A DNA stretch of 64,000 bases, taken from the NCBI GenBank assembly GCA_031287575.1, contig JAITSV010000056.1, forward strand, positions 1 to 64,000, written 5' to 3'. Below, in pieces: positions 4,506-46,528 of this stretch. The position numbers were made by a program, and so were the translations under genes. The notes under the pieces were generated by a model that made no database searches, had not been told where the DNA came from, and was given only the letters and a program-made list of their open reading frames with translations. Source of the stretch: Desulfovibrio sp. (GTDB taxonomy: Bacteria; Desulfobacterota; Desulfovibrionia; Desulfovibrionales; Desulfovibrionaceae). The number at the start of each line of letters is the position of its first letter. Positions within the stretch are counted from its first letter, which is position 1.

Positions 4506-6095
4506 ATGGCATACTGCAAGATACTGCTGGTCGAGGACGAAGCCGTTTCGGCGCTGGACATGCGCCGCAGGCTGCGTTCGCTCGGCTACGGCGAACCGGT
4601 GCTGGCCAACAACGGCGAACAGGCCGTGGAAACGGCCCGCAACCAAAAGCCCGACCTGGTGCTGATGGACATCGTGCTCGGCGAAGGCATGGACGGCATC
4701 GATGCCGCCTCGCGCATCCTGGCCCTGCATGCCGTGCCCGTCATCTACATGACCTCGCACGAGGACCCGGAAACCCTGCAACGCGCCAAGATCACCGAGC
4801 CGTTCGGCTACCTGCTGAAGCCCTTCGAGGACCGCGACCTGCGCACGTCCATCGAGATGGCGCTGTACAAGCACCAGATGGATCACGAAACCCGGCGCAA
4901 GGAACGCTGGTTCGCCACCACCCTGCGCTCCATCGCCGACGCGGTGCTCACCGTGGACCGCCACGGACGCATCACCTACATCAACGCCAGCGCCGAGGCC
5001 ATGACCGGCGCCGACCACCACACCTGCATCGACCGCCATTTCGCGGAGCACGTGGACATCCGGCCCGGCGGCAACGGCCACAGCCTGCAAGACCCCAACG
5101 ACCTGCTGGCCCAGCCGGTGCCGCCCGTGCCACCAGGGCAGCCGGTACAGCCGCCGCAGGGCTTCGGGGCAAACTCCGGCCTCCACGCGCCGTTCTTCCC
5201 GCCCCTTTCCCCCCTCGCACAAGGGGTGTCCGCCCCCCGGCATGGCAACCTGTCCGGTGACCTGTCCGGTGACCTGTCCGGCAACCTGTCCGGCGATATC
5301 CCTGGCCAGCCCGCCTTTGCGGGGCAATCGTCCCCCACGGGGCCGACGGCCATGACCGAAGCCTTCGTGCACGGCCCCGACGGCCGCGCGCACCCCATCG
5401 AGATGAGCGCCTCGCCCCTGGCCGACCCGGACGGTCGCCGGGTGGGCACGGTGCTGGTGTTCCGCGACATCACCGAGCGCCGCCAGTCGGAAGCGGCCCT
5501 GCGCCGCAGCGTGGAGGATTTGCGCCGTACCCTGCGCCAGACCGTTTCCGCCCTGGCCACCGCCTCGGAAAAGCGCGACCCGTACACGGCGGGCCACCAG
5601 GCGCGCGTGGCGGAGCTGGCCCACGCCATGGCCGTGCGGATAGGCCTTTCCGGCGAGCGCCTGGAAGGGCTGCGCGTGGCGGGCATGCTGCACGACATCG
5701 GAAAAATTCACATTCCCGCGGAGATACTGGCCAAGCCCACCCGCCTGTCCGACCTGGAAATGGGCATCATGCGCACCCACAGCCAGGTGGGCTACGACAT
5801 CCTGAAGGAAATCGAGTTCCCCTGGCCGGTGGCCCAGATCGTGCTGCAACACCACGAACGGCTGGACGGCACCGGCTACCCCCACGCCCTTTCGGGCGAC
5901 GACATCCTGCTCGAGGCGCGCATCCTGGCCGTGGCCGACGTGGTGGAGGCCATGTCCTCGCACCGGCCCTACCGCGCCTCGCTGGGGCTGGGCCCGGCCC
6001 TGGCGGAGATTGCGGCCGGGCGCGGCACGCGGTACGACCGCAACATGGTGGACGTGTGCGTCAGCCTGTTCCACGACGGCTTCATCCTTTCCTGA
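4506..6095 (+). CDS. response regulator with PAS and HD-GYP domains (probable c-di-GMP phosphodiesterase)
   Basis: The 529-residue cytoplasmic protein joins a receiver domain (1-120, phospho-acceptor Asp55 in VLMDIVL), a PAS domain (about 135-325) and a C-terminal HD-GYP domain (about 345-529). The catalytic landmarks are intact: His396-Asp397 in MLHDIGKIHIP, and HHE at 449-451 followed by DGTGYP. HD-GYP enzymes hydrolyse cyclic di-GMP, so phosphorylation probably adjusts that second messenger. The PAS domain is split by a ~90-residue insert rich in Pro and Gly that ends in four copies of a four-residue LSGD/LSGN unit. ATG at 4506 follows CGGAG by five bases. It lies 34 bases before the NtrX-like gene and may share its transcript. 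Confidence 0.88.
   Translation: MAYCKILLVEDEAVSALDMRRRLRSLGYGEPVLANNGEQAVETARNQKPDLVLMDIVLGEGMDGIDAASRILALHAVPVIYMTSHEDPETLQRAKITEPFGYLLKPFEDRDLRTSIEMALYKHQMDHETRRKERWFATTLRSIADAVLTVDRHGRITYINASAEAMTGADHHTCIDRHFAEHVDIRPGGNGHSLQDPNDLLAQPVPPVPPGQPVQPPQGFGANSGLHAPFFPPLSPLAQGVSAPRHGNLSGDLSGDLSGNLSGDIPGQPAFAGQSSPTGPTAMTEAFVHGPDGRAHPIEMSASPLADPDGRRVGTVLVFRDITERRQSEAALRRSVEDLRRTLRQTVSALATASEKRDPYTAGHQARVAELAHAMAVRIGLSGERLEGLRVAGMLHDIGKIHIPAEILAKPTRLSDLEMGIMRTHSQVGYDILKEIEFPWPVAQIVLQHHERLDGTGYPHALSGDDILLEARILAVADVVEAMSSHRPYRASLGLGPALAEIAAGRGTRYDRNMVDVCVSLFHDGFILS
5247..5297 (+). repeat. 12-bp in-frame tandem repeat within the PAS domain
   Basis: About four copies of a 12-bp unit (core CCTGTCCGG) encode repeated Leu-Ser-Gly-Asp/Asn. 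Because the unit is a multiple of three bases, copy-number change would leave the reading frame intact. Confidence 0.75.
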
Positions 6096-6128
6096 CCACC
6101 CTTTTCCGCACCCGCAACCGGACACGCC

Positions 6129-7598
6129 ATGCACGCCCGCATCCTGATCATCGACGACGAAGACGGCATCCGCTTCTCCCTGCGCGGCATTCTCGAAGAC
6201 GAAGGCTTCGAGGTGCTCGAGGCACCCAGCGGCGAGGACGGCCTTGCCCTGCTGGCCCGCGAGACCCCCGACCTGGTGTTCCTGGACATCTGGATGCCCG
6301 GCATGGACGGCCTGGCCGTGCTGGACCAGTTGCACGCCCAGCGCCCCGACCTGCCGGTGATCATGATCTCCGGCCACGGCACCATCGAAACGGCGGTCAA
6401 CGCCATCCGCAAGGGCGCGCACGACTTCATCGAAAAGCCCCTGTCGCTGGAAAAGGTGCTCATCGCCGCCCAGCGCGCCCTGGAATACGGCGACCTGCGC
6501 CGCGAGAACGAGGCCCTGCGCGACAGCCTGCCCACGGCCCACGCCGACGAGATGAACGGCCGCTCGCCGGTGATGGAGACCCTGCGCGGCCAGATCGCGC
6601 GGGTGGCCCCCACCGACGCCTGGGTGCTGATCACCGGAGAAAACGGCACCGGCAAGGAACTGGCGGCGCGGGCCATCCACGCGGGCAGCCGCCGGGCCGA
6701 CCGGCCCCTGGTGGCCGTGAACTGCGCGGCCATTCCGGAAGAACTCATCGAAAGCGAACTGTTCGGGCACGAGAAGGGCGCCTTCACCGGGGCGGATTCC
6801 GCCAAGGCGGGCAAGTTCGAAATGGCCCACAAGGGCACGCTGTTCCTGGACGAAATCGGCGACATGAGCCTGAAGACCCAGGCCAAGATACTGCGCATCC
6901 TGCAGGAGCAGCAGTTCGAACGGGTGGGCGGCCACCGCACCATGCGCGTGGACGTGCGCGTCATCGCCGCCACCAACAAGAACCTGGAGGACGAAATCGC
7001 CGCCGGTACCTTCCGCGAGGACCTGTACTACCGGCTGCGGGTGTTCCCGCTGGTGCTGCCCCCCCTGCGCGAACGCGAGGGCGACGTGCCCCTGCTGATC
7101 GACCTGTTCGCGCAGCGCCTGGCCCGCGACTACGGCGTGCGCCCGGCCACCTTCGCCCCCGACGCGCAGGAGGCGCTGGCGCGGTATCCGTGGCCCGGCA
7201 ACGTGCGAGAACTGCGCAACTTCGTGGAGCGCATGCTCATCCTGCATGCGGGACTGGAAGTGACGCGGACCATGCTGCCTCCGGAATTCCTGCCCCGGTC
7301 CGGGGCAGGCACCAACGGAATCGCGGGGGCGGGAACGGCGACGGGTGGCAGGGCCTCATGCGGGGCCGGGCCCGACCGGGAACCCCAGACCGCGCCGGAC
7401 AACCTGGCCGACATGGCCGCGCTGCTGGCCCCGGGCATGGACCTGAAGGCGGCCCGCGCCGCCTTCGAGGCGCAGTACCTTGCCGCGCGCCTCGCGGAGT
7501 GCGGCGGCAACGTCACCCGGCTGGCCGAGGCCGTGGGCATCGAGCGCAGCCATCTGTACCGCAAGCTGAAAGGGTACAACATCCAGACGGCCGACTGA
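6129..7598 (+). CDS. ntrX: NtrX-type sigma-54 response regulator
   Basis: This 489-residue transcription activator has a receiver domain (1-120, Asp53 in LVFLDIWMPG), an AAA+ domain with Walker A GENGTGKE (170-177), the sigma-54 contact loop GAFTGA (217-222) and a Fis-type helix-turn-helix at the C-terminus (GGNVTRLAEAVGIERSHLYRK). It should open sigma-54 promoters when phosphorylated. The receiver and the kinase at 1008 fit an NtrYX pair, and the operon order DUF4390-kinase-(two genes)-regulator supports it. A Gly/Ala-rich linker of about 40 residues (roughly 395-435) separates the AAA+ and DNA-binding parts. No good ribosome site precedes ATG 6129, but the receiver begins right after it, which fixes the start. 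Confidence 0.88.
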   Translation: MHARILIIDDEDGIRFSLRGILEDEGFEVLEAPSGEDGLALLARETPDLVFLDIWMPGMDGLAVLDQLHAQRPDLPVIMISGHGTIETAVNAIRKGAHDFIEKPLSLEKVLIAAQRALEYGDLRRENEALRDSLPTAHADEMNGRSPVMETLRGQIARVAPTDAWVLITGENGTGKELAARAIHAGSRRADRPLVAVNCAAIPEELIESELFGHEKGAFTGADSAKAGKFEMAHKGTLFLDEIGDMSLKTQAKILRILQEQQFERVGGHRTMRVDVRVIAATNKNLEDEIAAGTFREDLYYRLRVFPLVLPPLREREGDVPLLIDLFAQRLARDYGVRPATFAPDAQEALARYPWPGNVRELRNFVERMLILHAGLEVTRTMLPPEFLPRSGAGTNGIAGAGTATGGRASCGAGPDREPQTAPDNLADMAALLAPGMDLKAARAAFEAQYLAARLAECGGNVTRLAEAVGIERSHLYRKLKGYNIQTAD

Positions 7599-7685
7599 CC
7601 GGCAGACTGCCGACTGGCCGGGCGCCCGCCTCCGGGCATGGGCGCAGGTCACAAATGGCGCCCCGGTGGGCCGACGGGAGGGAAC

Positions 7686-8435
7686 ATGCATACGCTGGTA
7701 CTTCTGCGTCACGGGCAAAGCGCGTGGAACCTGGAGAACCGCTTCACCGGCTGGACCGACGTGGACCTTGCGCCCGAGGGCGAGCAGGAGGCGCGCGACG
7801 CCGCCCGCCTGCTGGCGGACGAGGGGCTGACCTTCGACGTCTGCCACACCTCGGTGCTGACCCGGGCCATCCGCACCCTGTACATCGTGCAGCACGAAAT
7901 GGGGCTGTCCTGGCTGCCGGTGCACAAGCACTGGCGCCTCAACGAACGCCACTACGGCGGGCTGCAAGGGCTGGACAAGGCGGAAACCGCCGCCCGCTTC
8001 GGCGAGGAGCAGGTGTTCGAATGGCGGCGCAGCTACGACACGCCGCCCCCGCCCCTGCCAGCCGACGATCCGCGCAACCCCGCCGGGGATGCCCGCTACG
8101 CGGGCCTTGCACCCGACGTGCTGCCCGCCAGCGAAAGCCTGAAGGAAACCGTGGCCCGCGTGCTGCCCTACTGGCACGACGTCATCGCGCCGCAGGTGCT
8201 GGCCGGGCGGCGGGTGCTGGTGGCGGCCCACGGCAACAGCCTGCGCGCCCTGGTCATGCACCTGGACGGGATGACCCAGGAAGCCGTCACCAGGCTGAAC
8301 ATCCCCACCGGGCTGCCGCTGGTCTACACCTTGGACCACAAACTGCGCCCGCTGGGCCACCGGTACCTTGGCGACCCGGCAGTGGCCGAGGCCAAGGCCA
8401 AGGCCGTGGCGGCGCAGGGGGCGGCGCGGAAATAG
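7686..8435 (+). CDS. gpmA: 2,3-bisphosphoglycerate-dependent phosphoglycerate mutase
   Basis: The 249-residue cytoplasmic enzyme interconverts 3- and 2-phosphoglycerate in glycolysis and gluconeogenesis. The catalytic RHGQSxWN signature is at residues 8-15, and the family blocks [35 protein letters not shown] and [10 protein letters not shown] follow in order. Length equals that of the dPGM family. ATG at 7686 is preceded by a strong GGGAGGG site. The C-terminal ~10 residues are Ala/Lys-rich. The gene is 87 bases after the NtrX-like gene on the same strand; a metabolic link with that gene is not evident. Confidence 0.95.
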
Positions 8436-40147: not shown

Positions 40148-41488
40148 ATGGACATCGCCGCCTTTTTCGCCGCCGAAGTAAAGCCCGCGCTGGGCTGCAC
40201 CGAACCGGGGGCCGTGGCCCTTGCCGCCGCCACCGCCGCGCGCCATCTGCCCGCCCCGCCGGAGCGCATCCATCTGCGCCTTTCGGCCAACATCTACAAG
40301 AACGGCCAATCCGTGGGCATTCCCGGCGCGCAGGGGCTGCGCGGCAACATGCTGGCATCCGCGCTGGGCGCACTGGCAGGCGATGCGGACATGGGCCTGC
40401 AAGCACTGGCCGCCGTTACCGCCGACGACGTGGCCGCCGCCCGCGCCCTGACCGAACGCGGTGCGGTAACTCAGGAAATCGTGCAGGACGTGCCCACCGT
40501 GTACGCCGAGGCGGAACTGTACCGCCCCGGCCATCTGGTGGTGGCCGTGGTGGCCGGGCGGCACGACCGCGTGGCCGAGGTGCGCCACAATGGGCAGGTG
40601 GTCTACCGGGCGGAAGACGCCCTGGGCGGCGACAGCCTGCCCCCGTACATGGCCGACCTGCAACGGGCCGCCTTTGACGACCTGTGGAACTGGGCCGAAG
40701 GGATCGACGCAGACCTCGCCCGCGACCTGCTGCGCGGCGCGGAAATGAATCTGGCCGTGGCCGAACAGGGGCTGACCAGCCCGTGGGGCCTGGCCGTGGG
40801 GCATACCCTGGGAATGGCCCTGCGCGGCGGAGATTGCCGGAACGCCAGCTCTTCCGACGCCCGCGCACCCGGCTCCTGTGCACATGACGCCTGCGGGCCG
40901 GACATCAGCGCCCGCGTGAAGGCCACCACGGCTGCCGCCGCCGACGTGCGCATGGCCGGGGCCAACCAGCCGGTCATGAGCAGCGCCGGTTCCGGCAACC
41001 ACGGGCTTACCGCCATCATTCCCCCGGCCCTGGCCGCGCGCGCCTGGGGCCGCAGCGATGCAGAACTGGCCCGCGCGCTGGCCCTGTCGCACTTGGTCAC
41101 CGGCGCGGTAAAGGCCCGCACAGGCCGCCTTACCCCGCTGTGCGGCTGCGCCGTGGCCGCCGGGGCGGGCGCCGCCGCCGCGCTGGTGCGCCTTGCGGAC
41201 GGCACGCCCGCGCAGGCCGAACAGGCCGTGGCGCTGGTGTTCTCGTCGGTCATGGGGATGATCTGCGACGGGGCCAAGGGCGGCTGCGCGCTGAAGGTGG
41301 GCACCGCCGCGGCAGAAGCCTGGAGTGCCGCGCAACTGGCCCTGCACGGGCCGGGCATGAACGGGGCCGAGGGCATCGTTTCGCCCGACTTCCGCGCCTC
41401 GCTGCGCTCGCTGGGCGAAGTGTCCAGCCTGGGCTTCGCCGCCGTGGACGTGGCCATCATCCGCCTGCTGGAGCGCGGCGTGCAGTAG
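40148..41488 (+). CDS. UPF0597 / L-cysteine desulfidase-like protein
   Basis: The 446-residue protein belongs to the UPF0597 family, related to serine dehydratase alpha chains; characterised relatives (CyuA/CdsB) break L-cysteine into pyruvate, ammonia and sulfide with a [4Fe-4S] cluster. Cluster ligand regions are kept: Cys17 in LGCTEPGA, TPLCGCAVAAG and MICDGAKGGC. An insert with three Cys at about residues 237-258 (CRNASSSDARAPGSCAHDAC) is not typical. AGGAGG before ATG 40148 supports the start. In a sulfate reducer it could help use cysteine, but that is inference. Confidence 0.87.
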   Translation: MDIAAFFAAEVKPALGCTEPGAVALAAATAARHLPAPPERIHLRLSANIYKNGQSVGIPGAQGLRGNMLASALGALAGDADMGLQALAAVTADDVAAARALTERGAVTQEIVQDVPTVYAEAELYRPGHLVVAVVAGRHDRVAEVRHNGQVVYRAEDALGGDSLPPYMADLQRAAFDDLWNWAEGIDADLARDLLRGAEMNLAVAEQGLTSPWGLAVGHTLGMALRGGDCRNASSSDARAPGSCAHDACGPDISARVKATTAAAADVRMAGANQPVMSSAGSGNHGLTAIIPPALAARAWGRSDAELARALALSHLVTGAVKARTGRLTPLCGCAVAAGAGAAAALVRLADGTPAQAEQAVALVFSSVMGMICDGAKGGCALKVGTAAAEAWSAAQLALHGPGMNGAEGIVSPDFRASLRSLGEVSSLGFAAVDVAIIRLLERGVQ

Positions 41489-41521
41489 GCGGCGCATCGC
41501 CCCCGCGTTCTGGACATACTA

Positions 41522-41558
41522 CAAGAACGGCCCGCCGCATTGCGACGGGCCGTTCTTG
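41522..41558 (+). terminator. terminator after the cysteine desulfidase-like gene
   Basis: CAAGAACGGCCCG and CGGGCCGTTCTTG pair over 13 bases with an 11-base loop. It begins 34 bases after the stop codon and would also act on the minus strand. Confidence 0.8.
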
Positions 41559-41616
41559 CGTCTGACCGTGACAGAGGATCGCAGCGGGGCGAGAAAAGCC
41601 CGCTCCGCACTCCGCG

Positions 41617-42072
41617 TCATTCCGACCAGTGGACCGCTGTTTCCACCTTGATGATGCGGAGTTCCCCGGCCTCCTTCCCAAGAAACACGAGAAGCGACGT
41701 GCATTCCGGCTTGTCCCCTGCAAAATTCACGGGGACCACCATGACGGAATCATTGATGGCTATTGCCTTGTAAACATGAATGGTTTCAAGCCATTCCTCG
41801 TTGGAATCCTGAGAATCCAGAAAATAGTCTGACCAGTAATTCCCCCTGTCCAGTTCGACAAGGTTTCTGTGTACCGTATCTGCATACACATACCGATATA
41901 TTTCTCCATTCTTCAGCGGCTCGTTGCCAAGCAATATTGCCTCTCGCATGTACCACTGATAAAAATAGTAAACAAATTTTTCCGGACTTTCTGAAAACTT
42001 TCGCACAGTGGCATGTCCAGATGCACATCCGCACATAAAGACAAGCATAAGCAGGTATACATATTTTTTCAT
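41617..42072 (-). CDS. DUF3828-like lipoprotein
   Basis: The 151-residue protein has a lipoprotein signal (MKKYVYLLMLVFMCGC, lipid-anchored Cys at residue 16) and a body with FYQWYMREAI, DYFLDSQDSNEEW and VVPVNFAGD, the pattern of DUF3828 (YbjP-like) proteins. The DNA is distinctly AT-richer than its surroundings. It is a paralogue of the gene at 42155, showing FYxWY, YRYV/YKYV and a matching C-terminal strand region. GAGGG seven bases before ATG 42072 supports the start. It lies downstream of a broken Rhs gene on the same strand, where immunity proteins usually sit, but an immunity role is only a hypothesis. Confidence 0.72.
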   Translation of the reverse strand: MKKYVYLLMLVFMCGCASGHATVRKFSESPEKFVYYFYQWYMREAILLGNEPLKNGEIYRYVYADTVHRNLVELDRGNYWSDYFLDSQDSNEEWLETIHVYKAIAINDSVMVVPVNFAGDKPECTSLLVFLGKEAGELRIIKVETAVHWSE

Positions 42073-42154
42073 ATGCACCCTCTTGCGAATCATATGAAAT
42101 AAAGTTGAACGATGCTCAAGCGCTGTTCGCTCTCACCGCATCAACCAATACCCT

Positions 42155-42595
42155 TTACATAAAAGGATACACGTCCATAACCTTGAATATTTTCAGCTCG
42201 CCATCATAGCTCTTTACCAAAACAATCACACTTCGCCTCTCCTGTCCCAGAACAAATTCCACAGGTATCATGGAGACGCCCCCTCCAATGCTAACCGCAT
42301 CCTTCACATCGACAACAACATCAACCCACCACGCCCCATAACTGCCAACCTTGGTGAAATAGTATATCCCGGACGTATCCGCGCGAACATCCGTGATAAG
42401 AGGCTTGGCTACATATTTATAAATTGCATCATTCTTCTCCGCCATATCTTCACCACGGTCTGCCACGAAATACCACGCATAAAAATCATGCACGACTTGT
42501 TCGGGTGACCGCTCCGTGCAGTAGCCATCGACCGCATGAAGAAACAGCATCGCAACTAGCGTGACAATACAATATACCCATCTCAACATCTTCAT
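42155..42595 (-). CDS. DUF3828-like secreted protein, paralogue of the 41617 gene
   Basis: The 146-residue protein has a signal sequence (residues 1-23, MKMLRWVYCIVTLVAMLFLH) and the same core as its neighbour: VVHDFYAWYFVADRG, KNDAIYKYVAKPL, VSIGGGVSMIPVEFVLG and ELKIFKVMDVYPF. It lacks a lipid-anchor Cys. GGAGG five bases before ATG 42595 supports the start. The DNA is AT-rich, unlike flanking genes. The two copies are 82 bases apart on the same strand and probably arose by duplication within the same acquired segment. Confidence 0.72.
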   Translation of the reverse strand: MKMLRWVYCIVTLVAMLFLHAVDGYCTERSPEQVVHDFYAWYFVADRGEDMAEKNDAIYKYVAKPLITDVRADTSGIYYFTKVGSYGAWWVDVVVDVKDAVSIGGGVSMIPVEFVLGQERRSVIVLVKSYDGELKIFKVMDVYPFM

Positions 42596-42966
42596 CTTAT
42601 CCTCCGAAAATCTCGCAGGCTTCTTACCAACACAGCAAATATTGACCGCGTCATTGCAATTGACAAGACCGCATAAATCCAAGAAAAAATACTATATCTC
42701 TACATTTTATCATATCGCACTAAATCCCAGATTTTCATAAAAAGCACAACTTCTAGCCACGACAGAAAGCAACCCAGGCTCCTCCAGAGCGCGTCGCACA
42801 TAGTGCAAAAGCGTAAGGACAGCCTTGACACTATCGGGCAAAAGAAGGACACAAAGACCACTACGCACCATCACACCAGCACCAAACCCGCAGTCCACAC
42901 GCTTTTCATGACATGTGACCATCACACCCGTGTGGACTTCCTCCACCCCTAATCTGGATTAGTATT
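42596..42966. other. AT-rich gap with a doubtful remnant frame
   Basis: A 78-residue minus-strand frame starts with GTG 42946 and ends at 42710. It has no ribosome site and no family match I recognise, so I do not call it a gene. CTAATC-TG-GATTAG (42949-42962) is a perfect palindrome just before the plus-strand membrane protein start, and could be an operator. Confidence 0.4.
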
Positions 42967-43380
42967 ATGGAAACAACCAATCACACCAAAAAAATAATTA
43001 CGATACTATGCATATTCCTGTCAGAATCACTTATCTGGCACTTCTTAGACATATTTGACGATGTAAACACACCCTATGTATACACGTTCATCATATTCTG
43101 GGCATCAATACTGCTCATGACCGCAGCCAACACAAAAAACAATAAAAACATCACAAAAATCGCATCATGTATAATGATATATTCTTCTTTTCTATTTATG
43201 GCATTTATGTTTACCTCATGGTCACATAACATCACATGTGGCGATAATGTGAGGCCAGATTTATTTCTGTTCAAAAAGAATGAACACATAGAAATTGGAT
43301 TTAGAGGATATTTTGCAGGATACATCCAATGCATATACTTAATTATAATATATAACACAATTAAAAAAAATGAAAATTAA
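42967..43380 (+). CDS. AT-rich small membrane protein
   Basis: The 137-residue protein has four predicted membrane helices (about 10-30, 37-54, 63-82 and 115-130) and is very rich in Ile, Asn and Lys, unlike the GC-rich genome. The frame is unbroken in AT-rich sequence, where stop codons are frequent, which favours a real gene. There is only a weak ribosome site before ATG 42967. It converges on the Rhs gene, with a hairpin between them. The function is unknown; a membrane immunity protein is possible. Confidence 0.55.
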   Translation: METTNHTKKIITILCIFLSESLIWHFLDIFDDVNTPYVYTFIIFWASILLMTAANTKNNKNITKIASCIMIYSSFLFMAFMFTSWSHNITCGDNVRPDLFLFKKNEHIEIGFRGYFAGYIQCIYLIIIYNTIKKNEN

Positions 43381-43382
43381 AA

Positions 43383-43425
43383 GCACCTGTGACTACTTGG
43401 CGAAGACACAAGTAACCACAGGTGC
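43383..43425. terminator. hairpin between the convergent membrane protein and Rhs genes
   Basis: GCACCTGTG pairs with CACAGGTGC and TACTTG with CAAGTA, forming a stem with small internal loops. It lies three bases after the plus-strand stop and 21 bases below the Rhs stop, so it can serve both. Confidence 0.55.
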
Positions 43426-43445: not shown

Positions 43446-45256
43446 CTATTTTTTAGCATTTTCCTCTCGACGCCTTTTCTCTCTTTTCTTCTTCATGTGG
43501 TCTATTCCCATTTTCGCCCCTTCAGACAACAAGAACTCTTGGGCGTTTATTCCGCCTCTCCCCACGTTCTCCATTGTTTTCGCCCAACCCTGAATATTAG
43601 GGGTCATAGCTTCCTGCATTTTTGCAATGCCATCTTGCTTCTCTTTGCTGCCATAGGGGTACATCCACCACGGACGCAGGCGTTGCAATATGTCTTTCGC
43701 CTTGGAGTCTCCACCACTTTTGCCCTGCCCGTCAGCCCCCGCAGTTGGGACATCGCGCGTGCCTGTTGCATCCCCCGCAGGCCGACCTTCTTGCTTTTGC
43801 ACATTGCCCCTCGCGGCGGCACTTCCCGCCGCGCCGCCATGGGCAAACGTGAACCTGCCGTCCGTGGCGCGCGGGTGTTCCGACTCGTCCCAGCCGCGCG
43901 CGGCAAGGCCCTGCTGGATCAGCCCCGTCGGGTCGTACGCGCTGACCGGATCGTCCACGCAGTAGTCGTACAGGTCATGGTCCCCACCCGTGTCCCCCAG
44001 GGGGGCCGGCGCCGTAAAGCGCCCCGTGCGCGGATCGTAATCGCGGAAGCCGAAGCGTACAAGGCCGGTGTGCCGGTCCACAAGTCCCCCGGCAAACCCC
44101 AGCGGTAAGAAGAAATACGGGCAGGTATCCAGCAGCGGCAGGCCGAAGCTGTCGTACTCCAACCGCTTGACCACCGTGCCGTCGGGATCGGTGAGCGCCT
44201 TTACCGTACCCACCTGGTCGCAGCCGATGCGAAAGGTGACGCTACGCGCATGGGCCGCCCTGTTCTCCGCATCGGTACGAAAAAGGGACGGGGCAGCATG
44301 CCGCCGCCCAGATTGTCCAGGGCCGGGCCACGCACGGTGACAGCGTGCGGCACGCGGCGCATGCCAGCCCTTGCTTCCGGCTTGCCTTCGCCCGCCTCGT
44401 AATGAAACACGTACTCCGTGCCGGTCCGATGGTCGCGGAACCGCGCCAGGCGCAACGGGTCATGCCACTGGTATTCCTCGCTGGGCGCATCGTTACGCAA
44501 CACCAGAAACGGCATGCCCACATCGTTGTAACGATACCGGACGGTATCGCCAGAGGGCAGCAGCACGGAATCCAGCGTCACCGGGGCGACGAGAATGCGG
44601 TGGGCATTCCGGCGCGCGCCGTCACGCACCACTACCTCCCGGACACTGCCGTTGCCGTACTGGAAATACGCACGTTCCCGCCCCTCCTCCCGGCAGCGCA
44701 GGGTACCATCGGGAGCGTAGCCCTATCGCGCACGTCCCGCATGGACCATCCGCCCCTCCCTGTCGTAGGCAAAGCTCCGTTCCGGCTCCAGACCGCGCCG
44801 CGCATCCCTCGACATACCCGGTACGGTAACCGTCCGCGCCCTGATGCGCTGGCCTGCCGCATTGCAGGTGTATTCCTCCGCCAGTGTACCGTTGCGGCGC
44901 ACTTCGGACAGATGGCCGCGCTCATCAAAGGTGTAGCCGTATTCAATGACATGGCCGCCGCAGGTCTCCAACTTGGTGCGCAACTTGCCGTCGGGGCCAA
45001 AATCGCAACAACGGGAGAACCCCGAGCTGGCGGCTGGCTCAGCCAAATTCCCCCCTGACACGGCGGGGGCGGGCAGCGGCATTCCGCCGGAAATATCTAC
45101 AACGACATCCGGCGCACCTGCACGGAGCTCCGAGCGCCCATCCTTGGGCTGCCTGGCAAACACGATGTCACGCAGAAATGCTTCCGTGGACATGGCGGGA
45201 CGGGCGATACGGGGGCGCAAAGTCTGCTGCCTGCTGGTGCGGGAATACGAGGGCAT
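43446..45256 (-). pseudogene. Rhs-repeat protein, broken by a stop codon and a frameshift
   Basis: Three frame pieces together encode a roughly 600-residue Rhs-type protein. The first (45256-44723) starts MPSYSRTSRQQ behind AGGAG and carries YGYTFDERGHLSEVRRNG repeats. At 44723-44725 a TAG interrupts RAR-GYAPDGTLRC, where Tyr (TAC) is expected. The next piece runs in the same frame to about 44280, where one T appears to be lost from a six-T run (five A on the plus strand, 44280-44284). The last piece continues as IGCDQVGTVKALTDPDG, the Rhs core YGFRDYDPRTGRFT...DPTGL and a unique ~145-residue C-terminus. Rhs proteins deliver such C-terminal toxins; here the full protein cannot be made. The toxin type is not recognised. 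Confidence 0.85.
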
Positions 45257-45736
45257 GGCACTCTCCTGAGTTATGTCGGCATGCGTGGCTGGCACCGCCG
45301 ATAGCATGCCCGCATCCCGAAATTTCACCCGCAAGGGGGTTGGCAGGGGATCACAAGGCCATCCGAACGGGGTTCCGCCATGACCGTTTTCCGTGGCGCA
45401 ACGCCCCCGACCCGCTTTCCCCCTCAGGCCGTCCAGTGCCGGAAGCCGACATGCGCCTGTCCGCCTGCATGGGGCAACCACATCCATGTGAAGATGTCGC
45501 ACCGCTCTTCCCGGCGGGACATGGGCACCAGAAAACGCAACGGGCCGCGTCACCACGACGCAGCCCGTTGTTCATCACTTTCCGACACGTTCGACACATT
45601 GCTGCCGGACATACAGGACGCCACACGACAGCACACGGCACGGTACGCCCACCGGTTGCACGCGAGGGGCAACCGCGCCCCCCTCCGCCACAATTCGGCC
45701 CAGCCCGATGGCGCGCTGGGAAGCGCCCCTTCCCCC
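45257..45736. other. intergenic stretch without a gene
   Basis: No convincing reading frame. It contains a terminator hairpin for the nitroreductase gene (CAACGGGC/GCCCGTTG, 45538-45570, followed on the minus strand by CGTTTTC). The region up to 45300 carries the upstream region of the Rhs gene. Confidence 0.55.
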
Positions 45737-46528
45737 TCAGTCCACCCAGACCACCTCGGGCACGTCGCGCGGGGGCACCCGGTGGTACTTCATGGCGGGC
45801 ATGCCCAGCATCATGGCGCCCACCACGTCCAGATCGTCGGCAAGGCCCAGCGCGACGCGGGTGGCCTCGTGATTGCGGGCGGCCCACATCACCAGACCGG
45901 CCCAGCAGGTGCCTATGCCCCGCGCCGTGGCCGCGAAATCCAGCGTGGTGGCGGCGATGCCGCCATCGCACGCGCCGAAGGGGTAGGTTTTCGGTGCGGT
46001 ACAGTACGCCAGGTGCGGCGCGCCGCGCAGCACCTTGTCGCCGCCTGCGGCGAATGCGGCCAGCGCATCCGGGTAGTAGCCCGATGCGCTCAGCCATTCG
46101 GAAACCACCCCGGCCAGCGCCCGCGACGCGGCGGCGGACCGGATCACGTGCCAGCGCAGCAGGCGGCTGTTGCGGGCGGTGGGCGCATGGCGCACCACGT
46201 CCATCAGTTCGTGCAGGGCAGCATCCGGCAGCGGGCGGGGCGAAAAACGGCGGATGGAGCGCCGGTTGCGGATCAGCGCATCCATGGCCGCGGCGTCGGC
46301 CTGGCCCGGCTGCACCGGCAGAAAGGACGCCAGCGGCAGGCGGGCGTGGCGCAGGGCGTTGGTGGGACACACGGCCACGCAGTGGCCGCAGTCGATGCAT
46401 TGTTCCGCCGCGTCGGGCACGGGCACGGGATGGCCGTTGGCGTCCGGTTGCAGCAGCCCCTTGGGGCAGGCGGCCATACAGTGGCCGTCGCCCGTGCAGG
46501 CATCCGTATCGAGGGTGATCAGTTCCAT
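45737..46528 (-). CDS. ferredoxin-nitroreductase fusion protein
   Basis: The 263-residue protein has an N-terminal two-cluster ferredoxin (CTGDGHCMAACP and CIDCGHCVAVCP, residues 10-55) fused to a nitroreductase domain with RRSIRRFSPRPLPDAAL and a matching C-terminal GMPAMKYHRVPPR. Such proteins use ferredoxin-delivered electrons and a flavin (FMN) to reduce a substrate that is not known. AAGGAGG six bases before ATG 46528 is a strong ribosome site. It lies alone, with LysE upstream on the same strand. Confidence 0.92.
   Translation of the reverse strand: MELITLDTDACTGDGHCMAACPKGLLQPDANGHPVPVPDAAEQCIDCGHCVAVCPTNALRHARLPLASFLPVQPGQADAAAMDALIRNRRSIRRFSPRPLPDAALHELMDVVRHAPTARNSRLLRWHVIRSAAASRALAGVVSEWLSASGYYPDALAAFAAGGDKVLRGAPHLAYCTAPKTYPFGACDGGIAATTLDFAATARGIGTCWAGLVMWAARNHEATRVALGLADDLDVVGAMMLGMPAMKYHRVPPRDVPEVVWVD

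Follow-up and report, generated by a model that had tools for sequence, protein, structure and literature searches.

The AT-rich block downstream of an rhs gene in a Desulfovibrio sp. contig encodes two predicted exported proteins, P1 and P2, which sequence and modelled fold identify as homologues of Tai3, the protein that confers immunity to the peptidoglycan amidase Tae3. We conclude with considerable confidence that the pair is a cassette orphaned by the loss of its Tae3 toxin. No Tae3 lies beside P1 and P2 in the window (the whole stretch of 64,000 nucleotides analysed here), whereas their orthologues in the congener G100 and their relatives in genus g40 do adjoin Tae3. A third protein of the block, P3, pairs with the Rhs C-terminus that is now present and is probably its immunity protein.

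An AT-rich block with two Tai3 homologues

Over 41.5-43.5 kb the GC content drops to 0.40-0.48, compared with about 0.65-0.72 in the surrounding DNA (1-kb windows). By gene it is 0.459 for P1, 0.466 for P2 and 0.312 for P3, against 0.661 for the Rhs core and 0.667 for the window. The AT-rich block noticed in the preliminary description was thus borne out, as 45% GC inside DNA of 67% GC, and so were two exported paralogues on the strand of the rhs gene (Table 1), both of which have N-terminal hydrophobic leaders. Leaders and signal peptides of P1 and P2 were assessed by eye. The other flank of the block holds a gene of the serine dehydratase family and tRNA-Gln/tRNA-Glu. Directly 3' of the serine dehydratase gene there is a 37-bp near-perfect inverted repeat (41522-41558), kept in the genomes G066, G100 and G124, which is probably the terminator of that gene.

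Table 1 Features of the locus, in window positions
Feature	Position	Strand	Basis or remark
P1, B-type Tai3-like periplasmic or lipoprotein immunity protein (predicted), 151 aa	41617..42072	-	phmmer, AF2 fold, dN/dS
Gln-Asp codons of P1	41806..41811	-	align with VQD of R. pickettii Tai3
P2, A-type Tai3-like protein, about 146 aa	42155..42595	-	phmmer, AF2 fold, motif column
Recombination breakpoint inside P2	42478..42494	-	5' part like G100 A1, 3' part like A2
ORF, 78 aa	42710..42946	-	common to G066; dN/dS 0.62
P3, small polytopic membrane protein; candidate for immunity to the present Rhs C-terminus	42967..43380	+	linkage
Strong hairpin between convergent P3 and rhs	43383..43425	both	z = -4.9 (+), -5.2 (-)
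Present Rhs C-terminus, PWWxYPYGSxEK type	43446..43816	-	G100 identity ends at 43817; replaces Tae3 end
Rhs core common to G100, now a pseudogene	43817..45256	-	95% DNA identity to the intact G100 gene

P1 and P2 share 30% identity (BLASTP, E = 5e-8). Among solved structures, the top phmmer match of both was the Tai3 chain 4HZ9_B (E = 2.3e-11 for P1 and 8.9e-8 for P2), and profiles of the two subtypes matched Tai3 with E values of 7e-18 and 2e-15. The AF2 models pointed to the same protein. The P1 model (mean pLDDT 81.5) matched 4HZ9_B best in Foldseek (E = 1.7e-8, TMt 0.86) and the P2 model (pLDDT 88.9) matched 4HZ9_C (E = 1.5e-8, TMt 0.82), with 4HZ9/4HZB far ahead of YbjP and 3KZT. 4HZ9 is the Tae3-Tai3 effector-immunity complex of R. 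pickettii, and no DUF3828 protein is better characterised than Tai3 (PMC13082787). The preliminary description knew of no proof that DUF3828 proteins act in immunity; for Tai3 such proof is in the literature (PMC13082787, PMC6099711). Against the Pfam family PF12883, P1 scored 22 bits, short of the gathering cut-off of 26, and P2 gave no match of its own; the G100 paralogue B1 clears the cut-off with 30.9 bits. A PF12883 match in G016 was discarded as a false positive, as its ORF resembles an MlaC-type protein.

The two proteins differ at the site that matters for inhibition, for which a QDX motif has been implicated (PMC13082787). In the motif column, taken from an alignment of about 100 Tai3 domains, P1 has the Gln-Asp of R. 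pickettii Tai3, and in P2 it is replaced by G-S and preceded by a shorter loop. In A6, Q87 is invariant and D88 is at least 90% conserved. Judged from these aligned positions, P1 carries the Tai3 motif and P2 is a Tai3 homologue without it. The paralogy proposed in the preliminary description holds, but the two are not simple recent duplicates; they represent two ancient, different subtypes.

P1 and P2 could instead be housekeeping DUF3828 proteins that sit beside rhs by chance, as relatives of E. coli YqhG and YbjP, with which they share the Pfam family and an NTF2-like fold; in fold comparison P2 matches YbjP, though distantly. We regard this as extremely improbable. YqhG and YbjP are not linked to toxins and are distant in fold scores, the closest solved relative being Tai3 by a wide margin over YbjP and 3KZT. 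Relatives of P1 and P2 are also spread patchily, in 13 of the 348 genomes of the class, and occupy a fixed position 3' of Tae3. A scan of genome contigs with P2 alone gave no matches. E. coli ybbC, which lies beside rhsD, was considered as a DUF3828 precedent and set aside, since it belongs to a different family (PF15631).

The Tae3 end of a congener's Rhs protein

At the same site, G100 (locus L038) encodes an intact Rhs protein of 732 residues, the last 110 of which are a Tae3 domain (E = 4.7e-26 to 4HZ9_A). The stop codon of this rhs-tae3 gene overlaps the start of the first of four Tai3-like genes in a row; P2 is the orthologue of the third and P1 of the fourth. Positions 43817-46499 of the window align with G100 at 95% and positions 41001-42540 at 90%, and the stretch between them differs. 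On this comparison the two loci share the Rhs core and the downstream flank and have different C-termini in between, which is the arrangement of displaced immunity genes, and the Tae3 end of the G100 protein would be the cognate toxin of the pair. Neither the alignment to G100 nor a Tae3 HMM revealed a recognisable Tae3 remnant in the window. The small ORF at 42710-42946 looked suggestive of a Tae3 fossil by eye and was rejected, six of 1000 shuffles having beaten its Tae3 HMM score.

The rhs gene of the window (43446-45256, minus strand) is not intact; it is broken by an in-frame stop codon (44723-44725) and by a 1-bp frameshift near 44294 relative to G100. With another C-terminus in the place of the Tae3 end, and with rhs disrupted, the P1/P2 pair is left as an orphan. 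The earlier suggestion of an immunity-gene remnant that has lost its toxin is supported for P1 and P2, given their homology to Tai3 and the Tae3 domain in G100, and does not extend to P3.

P2 is itself a mosaic of two genes that remain separate in G100 (170 informative sites, maximum chi-square 71, permutation p<1e-4), and the same mosaic is found in G066. The simplest history is that A1-B1-A2-B2 became A1/A2-B2 by unequal recombination and that the Tae3 end was replaced. The ancestral locus would have had an rhs gene ending in a Tae3 amidase domain and followed by A-B immunity cassettes in the same direction, as in G100. In the lineage of the window and G066, the Tae3 end would then have been swapped for an unrelated C-terminal module that brought its own membrane immunity gene, the convergent P3. 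Two cassettes would have been collapsed into one by recombination of A1 with A2, and the pair would have stayed as orphan immunity. For the direction of this swap we rely on the usual company of Tai3 with Tae3, no outgroup being used.

Both V. cholerae (PMC5361080) and CDI/Rhs loci (PMC3150448) provide known cases in which toxin ends are exchanged and immunity genes stay. In the T6SS arrays of V. cholerae, as proposed here, a new effector-immunity module displaces the effector and the old immunity genes stay downstream (PMC5361080). Our locus differs in that an Rhs C-terminus is exchanged and not an effector of a T6SS cluster, that a two-gene cassette is retained and that the incoming immunity gene is encoded on the other strand. 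Orphan cdiA-CT/cdiI and rhs modules likewise reflect C-terminal exchange past a conserved core with remnants downstream (PMC3150448), but here the immunity genes persist without a recognisable toxin fragment. The locus would be a clear example of a toxin exchange that leaves orphan immunity behind.

Both reading frames of the pair are intact in the window. P1 has a dN/dS of 0.14 against G066 and 0.28 against G100, and the 3' part of P2 has 0.15 against G100, figures that span the time before as well as after the loss of the toxin; P1 and the 3' part of P2 are under purifying selection between species. Since rhs is broken here and carries another frameshift in G066, where P2 also has a nonsense codon, the module may be in decay and no longer of use. 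That the pair is already a relic with no present function seems to us unlikely, although it deserves serious weight: rhs is broken in G124 too, from which the block between ~41.71 and 44.59 kb has been lost, and promoter-like sites at the pair are no commoner than in shuffles. The intact genes and their dN/dS values speak against decay, and orphan immunity genes of CDI systems are expressed and protective (PMC3150448). As orphan immunity, the pair may at present protect against the Tae3 of neighbours. The deletion in G124 (L039, near position 550) fuses the equivalents of window positions ~41.71 and ~44.59 kb at a short common sequence; it removed most of P1 together with P2, P3 and the Rhs end.

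The present Rhs C-terminus and a convergent membrane protein

P3 has three clear hydrophobic segments (residues 10-28, 36-54 and 65-83) and, by eye, a probable fourth at the C-terminus. The four-helix protein of the preliminary description is accordingly confirmed as a convergent membrane protein with three clear segments, its fourth helix being only probable. We found no convincing relative of P3 in Pfam, NCBIfam, PADLOC or the PDB, and in a search of the 348 class genomes its relatives were confined to the genus of the window. Nine cases are known, more distant relatives read from loci included: the window, four in G066 (one of them in L049), two in G085 and one each in G038 and G136. In 9/9 the P3 gene is directly downstream of an Rhs gene and convergent with it. 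The eight Rhs C-termini that we aligned are of the PWWxYPYGSxEK or FWAPYGSKEK type, so the C-terminal type of the window recurs beside other P3 relatives and P3 is consistently linked to one type (eight aligned pairs plus G136). In no case is P3 the same-strand gene right after the toxin; it is convergent in every one.

Because P3 always adjoins such Rhs genes and converges with them, it is the stronger candidate for the immunity protein of the current C-terminus, and from linkage and topology together it probably has that role. The same evidence would suggest that the present C-terminus is a membrane-acting toxin. The preliminary description had placed P3 in one array with P1 and P2, a grouping that we abandon in view of its opposite strand and its pairing with the present C-terminus. 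Bar one small ORF, the first genes 3' of rhs on its own strand are P1 and P2, which could themselves be the immunity proteins of the present C-terminus, but we consider this very improbable. All eight aligned relatives of that C-terminus pair with a P3-type protein, and among loci with this C-terminus the P1/P2 relatives (from the 13 genomes mentioned above) occur only in the window and G066. P1 and P2 moreover match Tai3, and their G100 orthologues adjoin Tae3.

None of 200 shuffles was as stable, on either strand, as the hairpin between P3 and rhs. A consensus terminator scan found no terminator there; the hairpin is nevertheless likely to be a terminator common to the two genes. Other Rhs genes of the genus (L044:8132-10924 and 6314-8062, L045:7-2010 and L040:3849-5657) end in one domain type, which in L044 is pesticin-like (phage-lysozyme type; PF16754, E = 2e-4, below the cut-off). 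Rhs genes of this type are followed by a secreted-looking protein of 577-582 aa, of no known family, which is possibly their immunity protein.

Alternating Tai3 cassettes

The preliminary description had proposed a survey of the association of DUF3828 genes with toxins. We carried it out on 80 Tae3 loci from named genomes, found with a Tae3 alignment, and Tai3-like genes adjoin Tae3 in 55 of them; such genes also adjoin Rhs-Tae3 fusions in two related genera. Outside the Desulfovibrio-type genera, the Tai3 beside Tae3 is usually a single gene and nearly every complete copy has Q-D. In the family of the window the order beside Tae3 is always Tae3 and then A-B pairs: two in G100, three each in G153, G175 and G273, and two up to the contig end in G068. 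The window and G066 have one A-B pair without Tae3. The Q-D/E motif is present in 15/15 copies of the B type and 0/15 of the A type, which have G followed by another residue. In genus g40 the order is Tae3-A-B-A-B-A-B, and in G175 Rhs and Tae3 form one open frame; our Rhs pattern search was too strict for this genus, and the lack of Rhs matches there is not evidence. In G153 (L042:10242-11958) the Tae3 frame is off the Rhs frame upstream, unlike in G175, through real decay or an assembly error.

A tree recovered a single A/B split (support 93/90) older than both genera. In genus g40 the tree of A matches that of B cassette for cassette (Mantel r = 0.87, p = 5e-5), and the cassette order varies among genomes. 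A and B therefore travel together as cassettes as far as gene order and trees go, a co-variation that linkage alone could yield and that does not imply binding.

Compared with R. pickettii Tae3-Tai3 (PDB 4HZ9/4HZB), P1 and P2 are Tai3 homologues, the B type keeps Q-D and the toxin beside the G100 orthologues is a Tae3 homologue. Known Tai3, however, is normally one gene after a stand-alone Tae3, whereas in G100, whose genus has no T6SS sheath gene, Tae3 is the Rhs C-terminus and is followed by repeated cassettes in which A genes, lacking Q-D, alternate with B genes, which have it. What is new is that, in the loci compared, Tai3 occurs beside Tae3 in two Desulfovibrio-type genera only as alternating A-B cassettes. 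We found no description of Rhs-fused Tae3 with such cassettes in the open-access literature.

The crystal structure shows a Tae3-Tai3(4)-Tae3 heterohexamer with two Tai3 per Tae3, in which a Tai3 loop inserted in the active site inhibits the enzyme (PMC6099711). Two Tai3 per Tae3 leave room for non-equivalent Tai3 subunits. We propose that P1 (B type), once exported, would block the active site of Tae3 by inserting its Q-D loop and that P2 (A type) would join P1 in a mixed Tai3 oligomer without inserting a loop itself. The general form of this model has Tai3 in these sulfate-reducer-type genera as an obligate two-gene antidote, in which B inserts the Q-D loop and A, without the loop, fills the other positions. 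The A-B cassettes would be inherited and shuffled as units; beyond this, the genes of small membrane immunity proteins would lie convergent to those of their Rhs toxins and have a bidirectional terminator in common with them. We put this general form forward tentatively, at slightly less than an even chance.

A and B may alternatively not be partners, each serving alone as the immunity protein to its own variant of Tae3. V. cholerae is known to have arrays of variant immunity genes (PMC5361080), and the cassettes diverge more than Tae3. We nonetheless think this unlikely, if worth keeping in mind, as A and B always alternate, occur in equal numbers and co-vary as cassettes, and as the inhibition-linked motif is gone from every A copy. 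G017 also fuses two Tai3 domains, though neither has Q-D. If the two-gene model is true, a Tai3 split with and without the inhibitory motif, in strict pairs, would represent a homo-oligomeric antidote becoming hetero-oligomeric, and the role of the second Tai3 would become directly testable.

A search for a T6SS sheath gene (PF05943) in the eight genomes of the genus gave none, and the short Rhs proteins here have no recognisable delivery domain. Tae3 amidases at Rhs ends in bacteria without a sheath gene raise the question of their delivery.

The protein of G017 with two Tai3 domains (L164:7637-8482) is an orphan fused immunity protein, no Tae3 having been detected in the 16-kb locus L164. 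The usual order is reversed at L111 of Rahnella sp. AA (4875-6339), where a Tae3 domain in an open frame of 984 aa is preceded by two Tai3-like genes.
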